A stretch of 47,873 nt of DNA from Sphingomonadaceae bacterium (GTDB taxonomy: Bacteria > Pseudomonadota > Alphaproteobacteria > Sphingomonadales > Sphingomonadaceae), in the NCBI GenBank assembly GCA_020847445.1, contig JADLBY010000018.1, positions 1-47,873 on the forward strand. Reading direction: 5' to 3'. Below the pieces are notes generated by a model. It was not told the DNA's origin, ran no database searches, and was given only the letters and a program-made list of their open reading frames with translations. Position numbers and translations under genes: made by a program. Positions 34,977-43,699 of this stretch are shown here, one piece after another (within the stretch, counting starts at the first letter, position 1; each line of letters begins with the position of its first letter).

Positions 34977-35978
34977 ATGCCGTCGGCCATAATCGTCACA
35001 GGCGCAGCCGGGTTCATCGGCTATCACGTCGCGCGCAGGCTCATCGAACGCGGCGAGCATGTCGTGGGCATCGATTGCATCAACGCATATTACGACCCGC
35101 AGCTCAAACTGGATCGCCTTGCCGAACTGGAACGGCTGGGCGGCGACTTCCGTTTCAGCCGGACCGACTTTGCCGATGCCGACGCGCTGGAAGGATTGGC
35201 GGCGGCACTGGATTTCGACCGCATCATCCATCTCGGCGCCCAGCCGGGAGTCCGCTACAGCCTCGAAAATCCGCGCGCCTATGTGCAGTCAAACCTGGTC
35301 GGCCATCTCAACATCCTCGAATTGGCGCGGCACACGCAGACACGGCATCTGGTCTATGCGTCGTCATCATCGGTCTATGGGCAGAACGGCAAAATCCCGT
35401 TCAGCACCGGCGACCGCGTCGACCACCCGGTTTCGCTTTAGGCGGCAACGAACAAGTCGGATGAGCTTATCAGCGAGAGCTATGCGCATCTGTACCGTAT
35501 TCCGATGACCGGCCTCCGGTTCTTCACGGTATATGGCCCCTGGGGGCGGCCTGACATGGCCCCCTGGCTGTTTACCGAGGCGGTTCTGCGGGGTGATCCG
35601 ATCAAGGTGTTCAACCATGGCCGGATGCGCCGCGATTTCACCTATATCGACGATATCGTCAGTGGCGTCATCGCCGCGCTTGACCGACCTCCGGCGGACA
35701 ACGGCCAGATCAAGCCGGGGGGCAGCGTCGGTCCGCATGCCCTTTACAATATCGGCAACAACCAGTCCGAAGAACTTGGCCGCTTCATCGAGGTCGTGGA
35801 AAAGGCCTGCGGGCGAACGGCCGAAAAAATCATGCTGCCGATGCAGGCAGGCGACGTGCCTGCAACCTATGCAGACATTGACGAGATCGCCCGCGATCTG
35901 GGCTATCAGCCGACCACGCCCATTGACACCGGCATCCCGGCTTTTGTCGAATGGTATCGCGCTTACAAAGGCGTTTGA
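34977..35978 (+). pseudogene. NAD-dependent sugar epimerase interrupted by an amber codon at the catalytic Tyr
   Basis: A short-chain dehydrogenase-like nucleotide-sugar epimerase of UDP-glucuronate 4-epimerase type, 333 codons in one frame. The N-terminal part (34977-35441) has TGAAGFIGYHVA, GIDCINAYYDP, HLGAQPGVRYS and ASSSSVYG. An in-frame TAG at 35439-35441 (codon 155) stands where PVSLYAATKK-type homologues have the catalytic Tyr of YxxxK. The codon at the expected Lys position is AAC (Asn), followed by AAG. Downstream, still in frame, are ELISESYAHLYRIP, LRFFTVYGPWGRPDM, RRDFTYIDDIVSG and VPATYADIDEIARDLGY. There is no frameshift or other damage. Either a very recent pseudogene, a sequence error, or a gene needing amber readthrough. 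It lies between wecC and ugd. Confidence 0.85.
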
Positions 35979-36044
35979 GGCGCTTGCCGCTCGCGGCATG
36001 AGCGCCTAAACGCAGCCAGTTCATCAATAGCCGGAAAGCAGAAA

Positions 36045-37346
36045 ATGAAAATCGCAATGATCGGTTCGGGCTATGTCGGCCTTGTGTCGGGGGCCTGCTT
36101 TGCCGATTTCGGGCATGATGTGGTCTGCGTCGACAAGGACCAGAACAAGATCGACCGGCTGAACGCCAACGTCATGCCGATCTACGAACCGGGCCTTGAC
36201 GCGCTGGTCAAAAGCAATGTCGATGCAGGCCGCCTCAGCTTTTCGACCGACCTTCCCGGCGCGGTTGCAGGCTGCGATGCGGTATTCATCGCCGTTGGCA
36301 CGCCGTCGCGACGCGGAGATGGCCATGCCGATCTGAGCTATGTCTATGCTGCTGCGGATGAAATTGGCCGGGCCATCGCGCCAAAGACCGTCGTCGTCAC
36401 CAAATCGACGGTGCCGGTCGGAACCGGCGACGAAGTCGAACGCATCATCCGCGAAGCGCGCCCCGACCTGGAGTTTGAAGTCGTCTCCAATCCGGAGTTC
36501 CTGCGCGAAGGCGCGGCAATAGGTGATTTCAAGCGTCCGGACCGGATTGTTGTCGGCACCGATGTTGAATGGGCCCGGGAAGCGATGCGCGCGATTTACC
36601 GTCCGCTGTTCCTGAACGAATCGCCGATCCTGTTCACCAGCCGCCGCTCGTCGGAACTGATCAAATATGCCGCCAACGCCTTTCTGGCGACCAAGATCAC
36701 CTTCATCAACGAAATGGCGGATCTGTGCGAAAAACTGGGCGCCAATGTTCAGGATGTCTCACGCGGCATCGGGCTGGACAATCGCATCGGCGGAAAGTTT
36801 CTGCACGCAGGGCCGGGCTATGGCGGCAGCTGCTTTCCCAAGGACACATTGGCGCTGCTCAAGACCGCGCAGGATAATGATACGCCGGTGCGGATCGTGG
36901 AGGCGGTCGTGCAGGCCAACGACCTCAGGAAGCGCGCAATGGGGCGCAAGATTATCAATGCGCTGGGTGGCGATGCCCGCGGCATGAAGGTCGCGCTGTT
37001 CGGACTGACGTTCAAGCCCAATACCGACGATATGCGCGACGCCCCGTCGATCGCCATCGTCCAGACGCTGATCGACGCGGGTGCCGAGGTGCACGCCCAT
37101 GATCCGGAAGGGATGGAAGAAGCGGCAAAGATCCTGCCCGAAGTGAAGATGGCCGACAGCGCCTACGCCGCGGCCGAGGGCGCCGATGCCGTAGCCATCG
37201 TCACCGAATGGGATGCCTATCGCGCACTTGACCTTGCCAAGTTGAACGCGGTGATGAAGGGCGATGTGTTGGTCGACCTGCGCAACATCTATCGTCCGGA
37301 AGAAGGGGCCCGGGCCGGCTTCGACTATTACAGCGTTGGCCGCTGA
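36045..37346 (+). CDS. ugd: UDP-glucose 6-dehydrogenase
   Basis: Oxidises UDP-glucose to UDP-glucuronate, a precursor of acidic polysaccharides. The 433-residue protein has IGSGYVGLVSGACFADFGH, IYEPGLD, FIAVGTPS, STVPVGTGDEV, NPEFLREGAA and catalytic Cys263 in GPGYGGSCFPKD, plus GLTFKPNTDDMRDAPS. The wording separates it from the WecC homologue two genes upstream. The interrupted epimerase just before it would act on the product, UDP-glucuronate, if functional. Confidence 0.96.
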   Translation: MKIAMIGSGYVGLVSGACFADFGHDVVCVDKDQNKIDRLNANVMPIYEPGLDALVKSNVDAGRLSFSTDLPGAVAGCDAVFIAVGTPSRRGDGHADLSYVYAAADEIGRAIAPKTVVVTKSTVPVGTGDEVERIIREARPDLEFEVVSNPEFLREGAAIGDFKRPDRIVVGTDVEWAREAMRAIYRPLFLNESPILFTSRRSSELIKYAANAFLATKITFINEMADLCEKLGANVQDVSRGIGLDNRIGGKFLHAGPGYGGSCFPKDTLALLKTAQDNDTPVRIVEAVVQANDLRKRAMGRKIINALGGDARGMKVALFGLTFKPNTDDMRDAPSIAIVQTLIDAGAEVHAHDPEGMEEAAKILPEVKMADSAYAAAEGADAVAIVTEWDAYRALDLAKLNAVMKGDVLVDLRNIYRPEEGARAGFDYYSVGR

Positions 37347-37421
37347 TGCAAAAGCGCAGCTTGCCTCTGGCCAAGCCATAAATGCTTGCGATGTGCGGCG
37401 CATTCGCCAAATGAGCCTGCC

Positions 37422-38327
37422 ATGTCCCGCAACCTGACCCATCTGGAACGGCTGGAAGCCGAAGCAATCCACATCATGCGCGAAGTGGTTGCCGAGGCCG
37501 ACAGGCCGGTTATGCTGTACAGCATCGGCAAGGATAGCGCCGTGATGCTGCACCTTGCCAAAAAGGCATTTTATCCCGCCCCCCCACCCTTCCCGCTGCT
37601 GCATGTCGACACGACCTGGAAGTTTCGCGACATGTACGCCTTGCGCGAAAAATCCGCCGCCGATGCGGGCATGGAACTGCTGGTCTGGAAGAATCCGGAA
37701 GCTGTAGACAAGGGCATCAATCCCTTCGATCACGGACCGCTGCATACCGATATGTGGAAAACCGAAGGGCTGAAACAGGCGCTCGACCATTATGGTTTCG
37801 ACGTGGCCTTTGGCGGCGCGCGGCGCGACGAAGAAAAGAGCCGCGCAAAGGAACGCATATTCTCGTTCCGCAATGCAAGCCATGGCTGGGATCCGAAAAA
37901 CCAGCGCCCCGAACTGTGGAATCTCTATAATGCCCGCAAGAAAAAGGGCGAGAGCATCCGCGTCTTTCCTATCTCTAACTGGACCGAACTCGATATCTGG
38001 CAATATATCCACCTGAACAGCATTCCGATCGTGCCGCTCTATTTTTCGGCCCCGCGCCCGACCGTGGAGCGCGATGGCCTGCTGATCATGGTCGACGATG
38101 ACCGCTTTCCGTTGAAGCCCGGCGAGCAGCCGGTCGAGCGCTCGATCCGCTTCCGCACTTTGGGCTGCTATCCCTTGACCGGCGCGGTTGAAAGCGAAGC
38201 CGCGACGTTGACCGAGGTTATCCAGGAAATGCTGTTGACCACCACCAGCGAACGCCAGGGCAGAATCATCGACAAGGATGGCGGCGACGCTTCGATGGAA
38301 AAGAAGAAGCAGGAGGGCTATTTCTGA
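37422..38327 (+). CDS. cysD: Sulfate adenylyltransferase small subunit
   Basis: CysD forms APS from ATP and sulfate together with the GTPase CysN. The 301-residue protein has the PP-loop [40 protein letters not shown], and [10 protein letters not shown], with GCYPLTGAV near the end. ATG 37422 is used because [14 protein letters not shown] matches the usual start; the frame is open to 37386 without support. The stop overlaps the cysNC start (TGATG). Confidence 0.97.
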
Positions 38328-40246
38328 TGACCCGCCCTGTTTACGAAACCGATGCCCTGATTGCCGATGACATCGAGGCCTATCTCGATCAGCACCAGCA
38401 CAAGTCGATGCTGCGGTTCATCACCTGCGGCAGCGTCGACGACGGCAAATCAACGCTGATCGGCCGGCTGCTTTATGACAGCAAGATGATATTCGAAGAT
38501 CAGCTTGCCGCGCTGGAAAATGACAGCAGGCGGGTGGGCACTCAGGGGCAGGATATCGATTTCGCCCTGCTGGTCGACGGGCTTGCGGCAGAACGCGAGC
38601 AAGGCATCACCATCGATGTCGCCTATCGCTTTTTCGCCACCGAAAAGCGCAAGTTCATCGTGGCCGATTGCCCGGGGCATGAACAATATACCCGCAATAT
38701 GGTCACCGGTGCGTCGACGGCCGACCTGGCCGTCATCCTGATCGACGCGCGCAAGGGCGTATTGCCGCAGACGCGCCGCCACAGCTATCTGTGCCATCTG
38801 CTGGGCATCCGCAACATCCTGCTCGCCGTGAACAAGATGGATCTGGTCGACTATGACCAGACTATTTTCGATTCCATCGTGCAGGACTATGCGGCTTTTG
38901 CCGCCAGCATCGGCATCGACGCCTTTACGCCAATTCCGATTTCGGGGTATAAAGGCGACAATATCACTGCGGCGTCGCCCCACATGCCCTGGTATCAGGG
39001 CCAACCACTGATCGAATATCTCGAAACCGTCGCCATCGACAATGATACCGATCAGGCAAGGCCATTCCGCCTGCCGGTGCAGTGGGTGAACCGCCCCAAT
39101 CTCGATTTTCGCGGCTTTGCCGGGCAGATCGCCAGCGGATCGGTGAAGCCGGGTGATATGGTTCGGGTGCTGCCCTCGGGCAAGACAAGCACGGTCACGC
39201 GCCTGGTGACCTTTGACGGCGATCTGGATGAGGCCGTCGCCGGCCAGTCGGTGACGCTCTGTCTGTCCGACGAAATCGACTGCTCGCGCGGCAATGTCAT
39301 TGCGGCAGCCGACAGCCCGCCCCAGGCCGCGGACCAGTTCGAAGCGCATTTGGTGTGGATGGCCGACGAGCCGCTGATCCCCGGACGCGCCTATTGGCTG
39401 AAACTGGGCACGCAGATCGTGTCCGCGACGGTTCAGCAACCCAAATATCAGGTGAACATCACCACGATGGAGCATCTTGCGGCAAAAACGCTCGATCTCA
39501 ACGCGATCGGTGTCGCGGTGGTGACCGCGGACCGCCAACTGGTGTTTGAATCCTATGCCCAGAACCGCACGCTTGGCGGCTTCATCCTCATCGACAAAAT
39601 GTCGAACGCAACCGTTGCGGCAGGGATGCTCAACTTCTCGCTGCGACGGGCGGAAAATATCCACTGGCAGGCCATCGACATCAGCCGCGAAGCCCACGCG
39701 CGCCAGAAGGGGCAGGAACCGAAACTGCTCTGGTTCACCGGGCTTTCGGGATCGGGCAAATCAACCATCGCCAATCTGGTCGAGAAAAAGCTGCACGCGC
39801 TAGGCAAGCACAGCTTCCTGCTGGATGGCGACAATGTCCGGCATGGCCTGAACAAGGATCTGGGCTTTACCGATGCCGACCGCATCGAAAATATCCGCCG
39901 CATCGGCGAAGTGGCGAAACTGATGACCGATGCGGGACTGATCGTCCTGACGGCATTCATTTCACCCTTCCGCGCCGAACGCGAATTGGTGCGCGCAATG
40001 TTGCCTGAGGGTGAGTTTGTCGAAATTTTTGTCGACACCCCGCTGGAGGTTGCCGAAACCCGCGATGTGAAGGGCCTTTACAAAAAGGCGCGCGCTGGCG
40101 CGCTCAAGAATTTTACCGGTATCGACAGCCCGTATGAATCGCCCGAGGCTCCGGATATCTGGATCGACACCACCCAAACCACAGCGGAAGCCGCCGCCGA
40201 ATTGATTGTCGAGCGCATATTGGGAATCTGGAGCCCGGACCTGTGA
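38327..40246 (+). CDS. cysNC: Bifunctional sulfate adenylyltransferase large subunit/APS kinase
   Basis: A 639-residue fusion. The N-terminal CysN GTPase has [17 protein letters not shown] (about 35-51), [16 protein letters not shown] and NKMDLVDYD, followed by two beta-barrel domains. The C-terminal CysC domain starts near residue 465 with [14 protein letters not shown] and contains [16 protein letters not shown] and [12 protein letters not shown]. It makes APS and then PAPS. It overlaps cysD by one base, and its stop overlaps the cysQ GTG start (GTGA). PAPS can serve sulfate assimilation or sulfation of glycans. Confidence 0.97.
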
Positions 40247-40962
40247 CCGATGCCGAACTTGCCTATGAACTCGCCCATGAAGCAGGACGGCAGTTGCTGG
40301 CCCTGCAGCAGACGGGCAGACTTGCGGGCAAGGAACTGGGCAAGGAGGGGGACCGGAGCGCGAACGACTTCCTTATGGACATGCTGCGCAGGCACCGCCC
40401 CGACGACGCCATTCTCTGCGAAGAGGAAAAGGACAATCCCGACCGCCTTGGCCGGAATCGCGTCTGGGTAGTTGACCCGCTCGACGGAACCCGCGAATTT
40501 GGCGAGGGGCGCAGCGACTGGGCTGTCCATGTCGCGCTTGCCATTGACGGCGAGGCGGTGATCGGCGCGGTCGCGCTGCCCGGCCTAGGCCTCACCCTGT
40601 CGTCGCAAAACCCGTTGCCGCCACGCCCGTCGAACCAACCGCTCAAAATGGTGGTCAGTCGCACACGACCCGCCGCAGAGGCGGTCAAGGTCGCCGGTGC
40701 ATTGGCCGCCGAGCTGCTACCCATGGGCTCGGCCGGCGCCAAGGCGATGGCGGTGGTGCGCGGCGAGGCCGACATCTACCTGCACACTGGCGGGCAATAT
40801 GAATGGGATAATTGCGCCCCCGCCGCCGTGGCATTGGCAGCGGGCCTGCATGTCAGCCGCGTCGATGGTTCCCCGATGCGCTACAACAATGCCGACCCCT
40901 ATCTTCCGGACCTGCTTGTCTGCCGCAAAGAGCTTGCGGACGCCGTGTTCGCCGCGCTTTAG
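40243..40962 (+). CDS. cysQ: 3'(2'),5'-bisphosphate nucleotidase CysQ-like
   Basis: An inositol-monophosphatase-family enzyme of 239 residues, expected to hydrolyse PAP (the by-product of PAPS use) to AMP. The metal-site motif [12 protein letters not shown] is clear, and the second motif is represented by [16 protein letters not shown]. The Glu of the first metal site lies in CEEEKDNP. The start is GTG 40243 overlapping the cysNC stop. Its TAG (40960-40962) overlaps the TAA of the convergent acyl-CoA dehydrogenase gene. Operon context favours PAP over inositol phosphate. Confidence 0.92.
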
Positions 40963-42140
40963 AGACCCAGTACCAGCTTGGCCATGATGTTGCGCTGAAT
41001 CTCGTTCGAGCCGCCGTAGATCGAGGCGGCGCGTCCGTTGAAATAGCGCGCGGTCGCGGTCAGCGCGCTTTCGGGGCCGACAAAACCCGCATTGCTTCCC
41101 GCCTGCCGCGCTTCAAACTGATAGGGTGCGGCATATATGCCCGCCACATCGACGCCAAGTTCCTGGATTCTTTGCTGGCACTCTGTTCCCTGCACCTTGA
41201 GCATCGACGATGCCGGGCCGGGGTCGCGCCCTTTGCCGATCGCCGCCAACACCATGTCTTCAACGGCATGGATTGTGCGCACCTGCGAATCGAGTTCGGC
41301 AAAACGGCGGCGGATCGCCGGATCGTCCAACAGCTCCGCCTGCTTCGCCGCGGCACGCACCTCGGCAAGCGCCTCTACCAGCCCGGCGGCATAGGCCGCG
41401 GAGCGTTCATATTCGAGCAGCGTCTTGGCAACCGTCCAGCCCCTGCCCTCTTCGCCCAGCCGGTTTACCTTGGGAACGCGGACATTGTCGAAAAACACCT
41501 GATTGAAATCATGGTCGCCCGCGATCGAATAGATCGGCTGCACGCTGATCCCCGTAATGTCCATTTCCATCAGCAAAAAGGTGATCCCCTCTTGCGGCCT
41601 GCCATCGCGGCTGGTCCGGACGAGGCAGAACATATGGTTGGCGACATGCGCGTGCGTCGTCCAGATTTTCGACCCGTTGAGAATATAATCGTCGCCATCG
41701 CTGTCGGCGCGAAGCTGAAGCCCGGCCAGGTCCGAGCCCGCCTGCGGTTCGCTATAGCCCTGACACCAATAATGTTCGCCTGCGAGCAGCTTCGGCAGAT
41801 AATAGGCTTTTTGCGCCTCGCTGCCATATTTCATGATGACCGGCGCGACCATTTTGAGGCCCATGGGCGAAAGATTTGGCGCGCCTGCCCGGGCACATTC
41901 GGATGCGAAGATATATCGCTGCGCCTCGTTCCAGCCGGTCCCGCCATGTTCTACCGGCCAGTTTGGGGCAACCCAGCCCTTGCGCAGCAGGATCGCCTGC
42001 CAGGCAAGATTATACGCCTTTTCGACGAACACGCTGGTCGCCCGCTTATGTGCCTGGCGCAATTCGGGCGGCAGGTTGTCTGCAAGCCAGTTGCGAACTT
42101 CGGTGCGAAAAGCGGCCAGATCGATCTGGATATCGTCCAT
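40959..42140 (-). CDS. Acyl-CoA dehydrogenase
   Basis: FAD-dependent acyl-CoA dehydrogenase of 393 residues. Visible family features are WPVEHGGTGW, the FAD/substrate segment YCQGYSEPQAGSDLAG-like WCQGYSEPQAGSDLA, NGSKIWTTHA, FFDNVRVP, and the C-terminal IYGGSNEIQRNIMAK. It probably belongs to the FadE branch that pairs with steroid or aromatic-acid degradation genes in sphingomonads, but the substrate is not readable. ATG 42140 is preferred over TTG 42146, with CAGGTGA upstream. The gene starts two bases after the stop of the interrupted acyl-CoA ligase gene on the same strand. Confidence 0.93.
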   Translation of the reverse strand: MDDIQIDLAAFRTEVRNWLADNLPPELRQAHKRATSVFVEKAYNLAWQAILLRKGWVAPNWPVEHGGTGWNEAQRYIFASECARAGAPNLSPMGLKMVAPVIMKYGSEAQKAYYLPKLLAGEHYWCQGYSEPQAGSDLAGLQLRADSDGDDYILNGSKIWTTHAHVANHMFCLVRTSRDGRPQEGITFLLMEMDITGISVQPIYSIAGDHDFNQVFFDNVRVPKVNRLGEEGRGWTVAKTLLEYERSAAYAAGLVEALAEVRAAAKQAELLDDPAIRRRFAELDSQVRTIHAVEDMVLAAIGKGRDPGPASSMLKVQGTECQQRIQELGVDVAGIYAAPYQFEARQAGSNAGFVGPESALTATARYFNGRAASIYGGSNEIQRNIMAKLVLGL

Positions 42141-42142
42141 CG

Positions 42143-43699
42143 TCAATTCACCTGCCGCTCATAGCCTTCCCAATAGGGCGCACGCAAATCCTTGCGCAAA
42201 ATCTTGCCCGATGGATTGCGCGGCAAGGCGTCGATAATGTCCACAGACTTGGGCACCTTATAGGGCGCGATCCGTTCGCGAGCCCATGCGATCACGCTGT
42301 CCGGATCGATGCTGGCACCGGGCTTGGGCACACAGACCGCTTTTACGGCCTCCCCCCATTTGGGGTCAGGAATGCCGACAACAGCCACTTCGAGCACATC
42401 GGGATGGCCATAAATCGCGCTTTCGACCTCGGCGGGATACACATTCTCGCCACCTGAAATGATCAGATCCTTCACCCGGTCGTGGATATAGAGATAGCCG
42501 TCATCGTCCAAATAGCCCGCATCACCGGTCTTCACCCAGCCGTCGCCCGTCATCGTCTTTTCGGTCGCTTCCTGCAGGTTCCAGTAACCAATCATGTTGT
42601 TTGACGAACGGGTCCAGATTTCCCCCACTTCGCCGGTCGGAACGTCCTTGCCCGCCGCGTCGACAACCTTGATCTCGACGCCGGGCAGCGGCTTTCCGGC
42701 GCTGCGCATGCGGGGATTGCCATTGGGATCATGGTCTTCGGGCGGCAACATGCAGATCGTGCCGGTCGTTTCCGTCATCCCGTAATTCTGGATGAAGTCG
42801 CATTTGAACATCTGGATGCACTGGCGCAGCAGTTCGAGCGGGATCGGCGCTGCCCCGTAAAGAATATATTTGAGGCGGCTGAAATCGACGGTCGCGCAGC
42901 GCGGATGCTGCAAAAGGATATGAAGCGCCGCCGGAACGATGAATAGCCGTGTCACCCCGCCGGTTTCCACCGAATCGAAAAAGCCGTCCGGTGTGAATTC
43001 GGCGAGAATATAGGATGGAAGCCCCGCCGCGACCGACATGATCCCCAGGCCCGTTCCGCCGATATGCGCGCATGGCATGGCGACTAGAACGACTTCGTCA
43101 TCATCCCATTTGGTATAGGCAAGGTCGGTTCCGGCCGAATGTTTGCGCAGCGCAAACAGGTTCCGGTTCGACAGCACCGCGCCCTGGGGGTTGCCGGTCG
43201 TGCCCGAGGTCTAAAGCTGGAGCACGGCGTCATCGCTGGTCGAAGGTTCAAACGGCGCGCGAGCGGTATTGTCGACCAGCGCGCGCGCTTCGGGATCGGT
43301 TATCACTTCCTCGACCAGGGGCAGCAGCCCTTCCATCGATGCCGGTGCGGATTCGAACCCTCGCCCCAGAAACAGGATCTTCGCCTTGGTATCGTTGATG
43401 ATATAGGCCCATTCGGGTGGTGCCAGACGCCAGCCGACCGGCACCATGACGATTCCCGCGCGCGCTGCGCCGTAGAAAAGCGTGAAATATATGTCGCTGT
43501 TCTTGCCGATCCAGGCGATCCGGTCACCCTTTTTAAGGCCCCTGGCGAGCAGAGCCGTGGCTACACGGGCCGTGCGCTCCTCCAGTTCGGCATAGGTGTA
43601 GAAGCGGTCCTCCTCGCGCATGGCAAGGCGATCTCCGCGCTCATCGCGCCAGTGGCGAATGAATTCGTCAAAACTGTTCAATTCCGAAACATCGGCCAT
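42143..43699 (-). pseudogene. Acyl-CoA ligase (AMP-binding) interrupted by an amber codon in the P-loop
   Basis: An AMP-forming acyl-CoA synthetase, 518 codons from ATG 43699 (GAGAGGAAG upstream). The N-terminal part has RFYTYAELEER, GDRIAWIGKNS and GIVMVPVGWRLAP. An in-frame TAG (43213-43211, codon 163) stands where the family loop has Tyr: DDAVLQL, stop, TSGTTGNPQG. Within that loop the usual Lys of PKG is Gln here, a variant that also occurs naturally. The downstream part stays in the same frame and is complete: QNYGMTETTG, WVKTGDAGYLDDDGYLY, DRVKDLIISGGENVYP and the catalytic Lys in NPSGKILRKDLR. No other lesion is seen. It would form acyl-CoA for the adjacent dehydrogenase. Recent pseudogene, sequence error or readthrough. 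Confidence 0.85.

Follow-up and report, generated by a model that had tools for sequence, protein, structure and literature searches.

In-frame TAG codons at conserved tyrosines of an epimerase-like and a synthetase-like gene in a Sphingomonadaceae genome bin are best read as ordinary stops

Introduction

The closest described counterparts of the two genes considered here are an epimerase of the SDR type and the ANL acyl-CoA synthetases. The UDP-glucuronic acid 4-epimerase UGAepi has a Tyr/Ser/Lys triad that is called universally conserved, and replacement of the Tyr with Phe lowers its activity ~1200-fold (PMC7984243). For the ANL synthetase FadD13, a 63.5% loss of activity and a ~tenfold higher Km for ATP are reported when Lys172 is replaced with Ala (PMC2793005). 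A third comparison is with bacterial pseudogenes that carry an internal stop, whether genuine or spurious (PMC11017572); they combine a single internal stop with intact relatives, as here. Each of the two genes described below differs from those pseudogenes in a second departure, at a nearby invariant motif residue.

The window, i.e., the whole stretch of 47,873 nucleotides that was analysed, is the complete contig C18 of a draft metagenome bin (G000; 3.15 Mb in 232 contigs, 99.35% complete, 6.1% contaminated). Judged from the synthetase, its nearest named relatives are metagenome bins of Sphingorhabdus, with identities of 93, 90, and 90%.

Materials and Methods

For each gene, 60 relatives were searched and up to 29 relatives' loci (the maximum taken) compared, which yielded the counts of invariant columns and of Tyr and Lys residues. 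Pfam was run on seven window proteins. ORF and codon counts come from a genome sample of 1.07 Mb (~1/3 of the genome), in which 792 main ORFs reach 150 codons or more. A tRNA family search covered the whole draft genome and gave 44 matches, and ARAGORN found a tRNA in all 44 loci. The names used for genes (wecB, wecC, ugd and cys) follow our own reading or the initial annotation.

Results

Two interrupted genes with paired losses in their active-site motifs

The initial annotation had reported two genes, each with a single in-frame TAG at a conserved Tyr after GCTTTA, and both its coordinates and the conservation of the Tyr were confirmed (Table 1). A second lesion close to each TAG, at an invariant Lys column, had escaped it. 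Both TAGs stand directly 3' of a CTT codon that is preceded by G, and the seven bases GCTTTAG are common to the two sites. With intact relatives and an internal stop here, both genes are candidate pseudogenes by internal stop.

Table 1. Coordinates of the interrupted genes and of their lesions (window positions unless a locus is named).
Feature	Position	Strand	Remark
UDP-sugar 4-epimerase-like (SDR) gene	34977..35978	+	interrupted at codon 155 of 333
In-frame TAG, Tyr column of YxxxK	35439..35441	+	Tyr in 29/29 relatives' loci
Epimerase codon 159, Asn in place of YxxxK Lys	35451..35453	+	Lys in 29/29 relatives
Acyl-CoA synthetase-like gene (AMP-binding)	42143..43699	-	interrupted at codon 163 of 518
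In-frame TAG, Tyr column before TSGTTGxPKG	43211..43213	-	Tyr in 29/29 relatives' and 79/79 named loci
Synthetase codon 172, Gln in place of TSGTTGxPKG Lys	43184..43186	-	Lys in 29/29 and 79/79 loci
Fatty-acid hydroxylase gene	L074:2430-3299 (G000 C117)		in-frame TAG; 14/15 relatives Met, one Val
C36 gene, hydrophobic N-terminus	L253:8005-9117		TAA at ~codon 27, directly after hydrophobic stretch

The Pfam domain Epimerase (PF01370) matches residues 5-240 of the epimerase-like protein, across the stop, and the nearest solved chains are 5u4q and then 6zl6, both aligned over almost the full length. This domain and the near full-length alignment are shared with UDP-glucuronic acid 4-epimerase (PMC7984243); the window gene differs from it in having TAG for the Tyr codon and Asn for the YxxxK Lys, which leaves the Ser/Tyr/Lys triad incomplete. 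By descent, the gene would thus be a broken member of the SDR UDP-sugar 4-epimerases. Among the 88 columns invariant in its 29 relatives it departs from two, namely the TAG and the Lys column four codons on; counted after the fact, 3 of the 87 other invariant columns lie as near the TAG as the Asn lesion does. Codon 90 (35244-35246) encodes Pro, a residue shared with one of the 29 relatives; the other 28 have Ala.

Likewise, the AMP-binding domain (PF00501) matches residues 16-373 of the synthetase-like protein, across the stop, and the nearest solved chains are 8weu and 8wev. The domain and the TSGTTGxPKG motif are common to this protein and to ANL acyl-CoA synthetases such as FadD13 (PMC2793005), from which it differs by the TAG at the Tyr codon and by Gln at the motif Lys, so that the motif itself is not intact. 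Judged from sequence, the gene is by descent a presumptive broken member of the ANL acyl-CoA synthetases. It departs from 4 of 255 invariant columns (the TAG, the Lys nine codons on and two mild changes), and 13 of the 254 others are as near the TAG as the Gln lesion, again counted after the fact. By our own arithmetic, there is a ~15% probability that one or more of its three additional departures would lie nine codons or less from the TAG.

The number of broken invariant columns is not in itself special: in a leave-one-out control the relatives depart from 0-4 (epimerase) and 0-17 (synthetase) such columns, against two and four here. The oddity lies in which columns are hit.

The epimerase gene is accessory, because it is missing between wecC and ugd in three genomes (G002, G029 and G001). 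It adjoins ugd in G030 and G028; the G032 and G036 stretches, in which wecC is missing, are uninformative on its presence. The gene and the cysD/N/Q-like block (window 34977-40962) are accessory, with parts missing at the same place in near relatives. Among 36 genomes of the same genus, 30 contain a synthetase match of at least 69% identity with no stop, five others have a stop-free match at 49-52%, and G028 has a weak match only; the gene is widely kept in the genus, and its loss is not obviously expected.

Two further interrupted genes in the genome sample

A codon-usage scan returned 32 candidates, including the synthetase and missing the epimerase, and a phased Markov scan returned 81, including the epimerase and missing the synthetase; as each scan missed one of the two known cases, both are insensitive and more interrupted genes may exist. 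When 20 of the 81 Markov candidates were run against Pfam, a domain spanned the stop in one, the fatty-acid hydroxylase gene of L074, and 3 of the 20 had no domain. This hydroxylase gene is divergent, and an intact homologue lies on C190. The C36 gene, which may be DUF3089-like, has its TAA in a column with Glu (five) or Gln (three) in the eight relatives shown of the 19 compared, and the relatives listed are all stop-free.

Domain matches over the whole draft genome (33 SDR, 16 AMP-binding and 27 ABC, 76 in total) included one internal stop, that of the synthetase described here, so that internal stops are rare in this genome as far as three large families go. In that SDR search the epimerase gave only a weak match, ending before its TAG.

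Alignment of G001 ORFs to the G000 sample gave 19 internal stops in 243 aligned ORFs in one run, and 11 stops and 3 frameshift-like breaks in 176 ORFs in another. There is no raw excess of stops in this genome, because the control direction shows more (44 stops in 238 ORFs; 48 stops and 4 breaks in 146 ORFs). Judged by eye, the true-frame interruptions among the G001-aligned ORFs are the synthetase and the C36 gene only, the others resembling wrong-frame ORFs. Scattered N letters occur in the G001 stretch L294, where some of the apparent stops and breaks stem from masked bases.

State of the contig and of the bin

Contig C18 is not error-ridden: the four remaining window genes for which 20 or more relatives were available depart from only 2 of 896 invariant columns. 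On C115 and C88 (L363, L364), the bin carries a pair of RF1-like gene starts that are 74-76% identical. A 6.5-kb stretch is present twice at 80% identity (L075 and L086; C119 and C74), for which duplication is also possible. From these doubled starts and the doubled stretch, the bin may mix two related lineages.

The base changes were also examined for a pattern that would point to errors or to a mutator, an idea that was set aside. Over eight genes (of ten, the usable ones), residues unique to one genome number 76 here, 173 in G001, and 32, 30 and 26 in G002, G029 and G032. At codon positions 1 and 2, one class of base change occurs 15 times here vs. 3, 4 and 2 times in the three nearer genomes, and its share equals that of the more distant G001 (31 changes). 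We read this pattern as branch depth, with no signature of errors, a comparison that is not decisive.

Discussion

As one of three options, the initial annotation had offered amber suppression, in which a tRNA that inserts Tyr would read the two TAGs and so restore the proteins. Two observations fit this idea: each of the stops is a TAG in place of a conserved Tyr, and the tRNA set is incomplete, with a gap that could hide a suppressor. However, no CUA anticodon occurs among the 44 tRNA loci of the draft genome (Ile-GAT, Ala-TGC and Leu-TAA were likewise not found there, so gaps remain), and the lone Tyr tRNA has anticodon GTA. The statement that TAG ends at least ten other genes holds, with TAG as the terminator of 10 of 40 hand-marked window genes. 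It also terminates 194 of the 792 main ORFs, where recoding would go with a TAG that is little used or with a missing RF1; RF1-like pieces lie on C115, C88 and C93, each singly below the family cut-off. Nor do the interrupted positions correspond to a single residue: in the four interrupted genes found, in a ~1/3 genome sample searched with limited sensitivity, they are Tyr, Tyr, Glu/Gln (TAA) and Met (TAG). Moreover, judged from sequence, inserting Tyr would fail to restore working active sites because neither gene retains its motif Lys: an epimerase carrying the inserted Tyr would still be without its catalytic Lys, and the synthetase would probably be weakened. TAG is therefore best read as an ordinary stop in this genome, and amber suppression is very unlikely.

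An artefact common to GCTTTA sites, also suggested initially, draws on the seven identical bases at the two sites and on four occurrences of GCTTTAG in the window vs. 58 in 3.15 Mb (of the four, one is a gene end and one is intergenic). It is set against 107 GCTTTAC and 76 GCTTTAT next to 27 GCTTTAG in the sample, and against 60 in-frame G-CTT-TAY codons that are intact there (out of 119 intact CTT-TAY codons in the 792 ORFs). The Lys lesions, too, fall outside the seven-base context. GCTTTA is thus not misread as a rule, and an artefact specific to it is unlikely to the point of being hardly credible; the part of the suggestion that stands is an ordinary consensus error at each site separately, weighed below. 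As for chance, the initial annotation was right that an amber change from Tyr is less likely than one from Gln (4-7% of nonsense opportunity for Tyr to TAG, vs. 12-26% for Gln to TAG). With the codon use of this genome, two random nonsense changes would both be Tyr to TAG with a probability of 0.0016-0.0054, would both be TAG with one of 0.27-0.30, and would agree in residue and stop with one of 0.074-0.114. Leu precedes the motif Tyr in 22/22 epimerase and 29/29 synthetase relatives with the motif retrieved (seven epimerase loci escaped the pattern), and of the four nearest relatives, three use CTT for this Leu in the synthetase. Of 385 Leu-Tyr pairs counted, 93 (24%) have CTT as the Leu codon, which amounts to 93 of all 4521 Tyr codons (2%). 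Rates of 7-11% for agreement in residue and stop, and of 24% for CTT at Leu-Tyr pairs, make the coincidence a mild one; what the two sites have in common (Tyr, TAG and CTT) exceeds chance only weakly, and chance, which had been named as one option, is tenable.

The Tyr-plus-Lys pairing is the single odd point remaining. Both genes are otherwise well conserved, and a Lys lesion only four (epimerase) or nine (synthetase) codons from the TAG is not what random decay would lead one to expect. Clustered mutation, or selection against leaky read-through products, could have made this loss in two unrelated active sites real and non-random, with doubly dead enzymes in a living population, a reading that we consider improbable. 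The paired lesions also count in favour of local consensus errors, by which weak spots in the assembly would have put wrong bases into two intact genes; the 232 contigs and 6.1% contamination of the bin, and its possible mixture of two related lineages, point the same way, and low coverage is reported to create spurious internal stops in isolate assemblies (PMC11017572, whose available text does not assess MAGs). Against such errors stand the few departures in the other well-sampled window genes, the one stop in 76 large-family matches, and unusual base changes relative to G001 that are not in excess. Consensus errors are accordingly a serious possibility, short of even odds, and the broken copies would appear slightly ahead as real alleles.

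Our preferred reading, to which we give a probability of about 0.52, takes TAG as an ordinary stop, the two genes as separate copies that were broken recently, and what they share (Tyr, TAG and CTT) as coincidental. The accessory nature of the epimerase speaks for this reading; the wide retention of the synthetase in the genus and the good conservation of both genes outside the lesions speak against it. The two copies would have been broken independently, with lesions in their active-site motifs; translation would end after 154 residues in the epimerase and after 162 in the synthetase, and any read-through product would still be without the motif Lys.

Suppression of the TAGs would have made this a naturally occurring amber suppressor in a free-living member of the Alphaproteobacteria, which the evidence does not support. 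The lesson is one of caution: in a metagenome bin, internal stops can mimic recoding until the tRNA set, terminator use and neighbouring catalytic residues have been checked.
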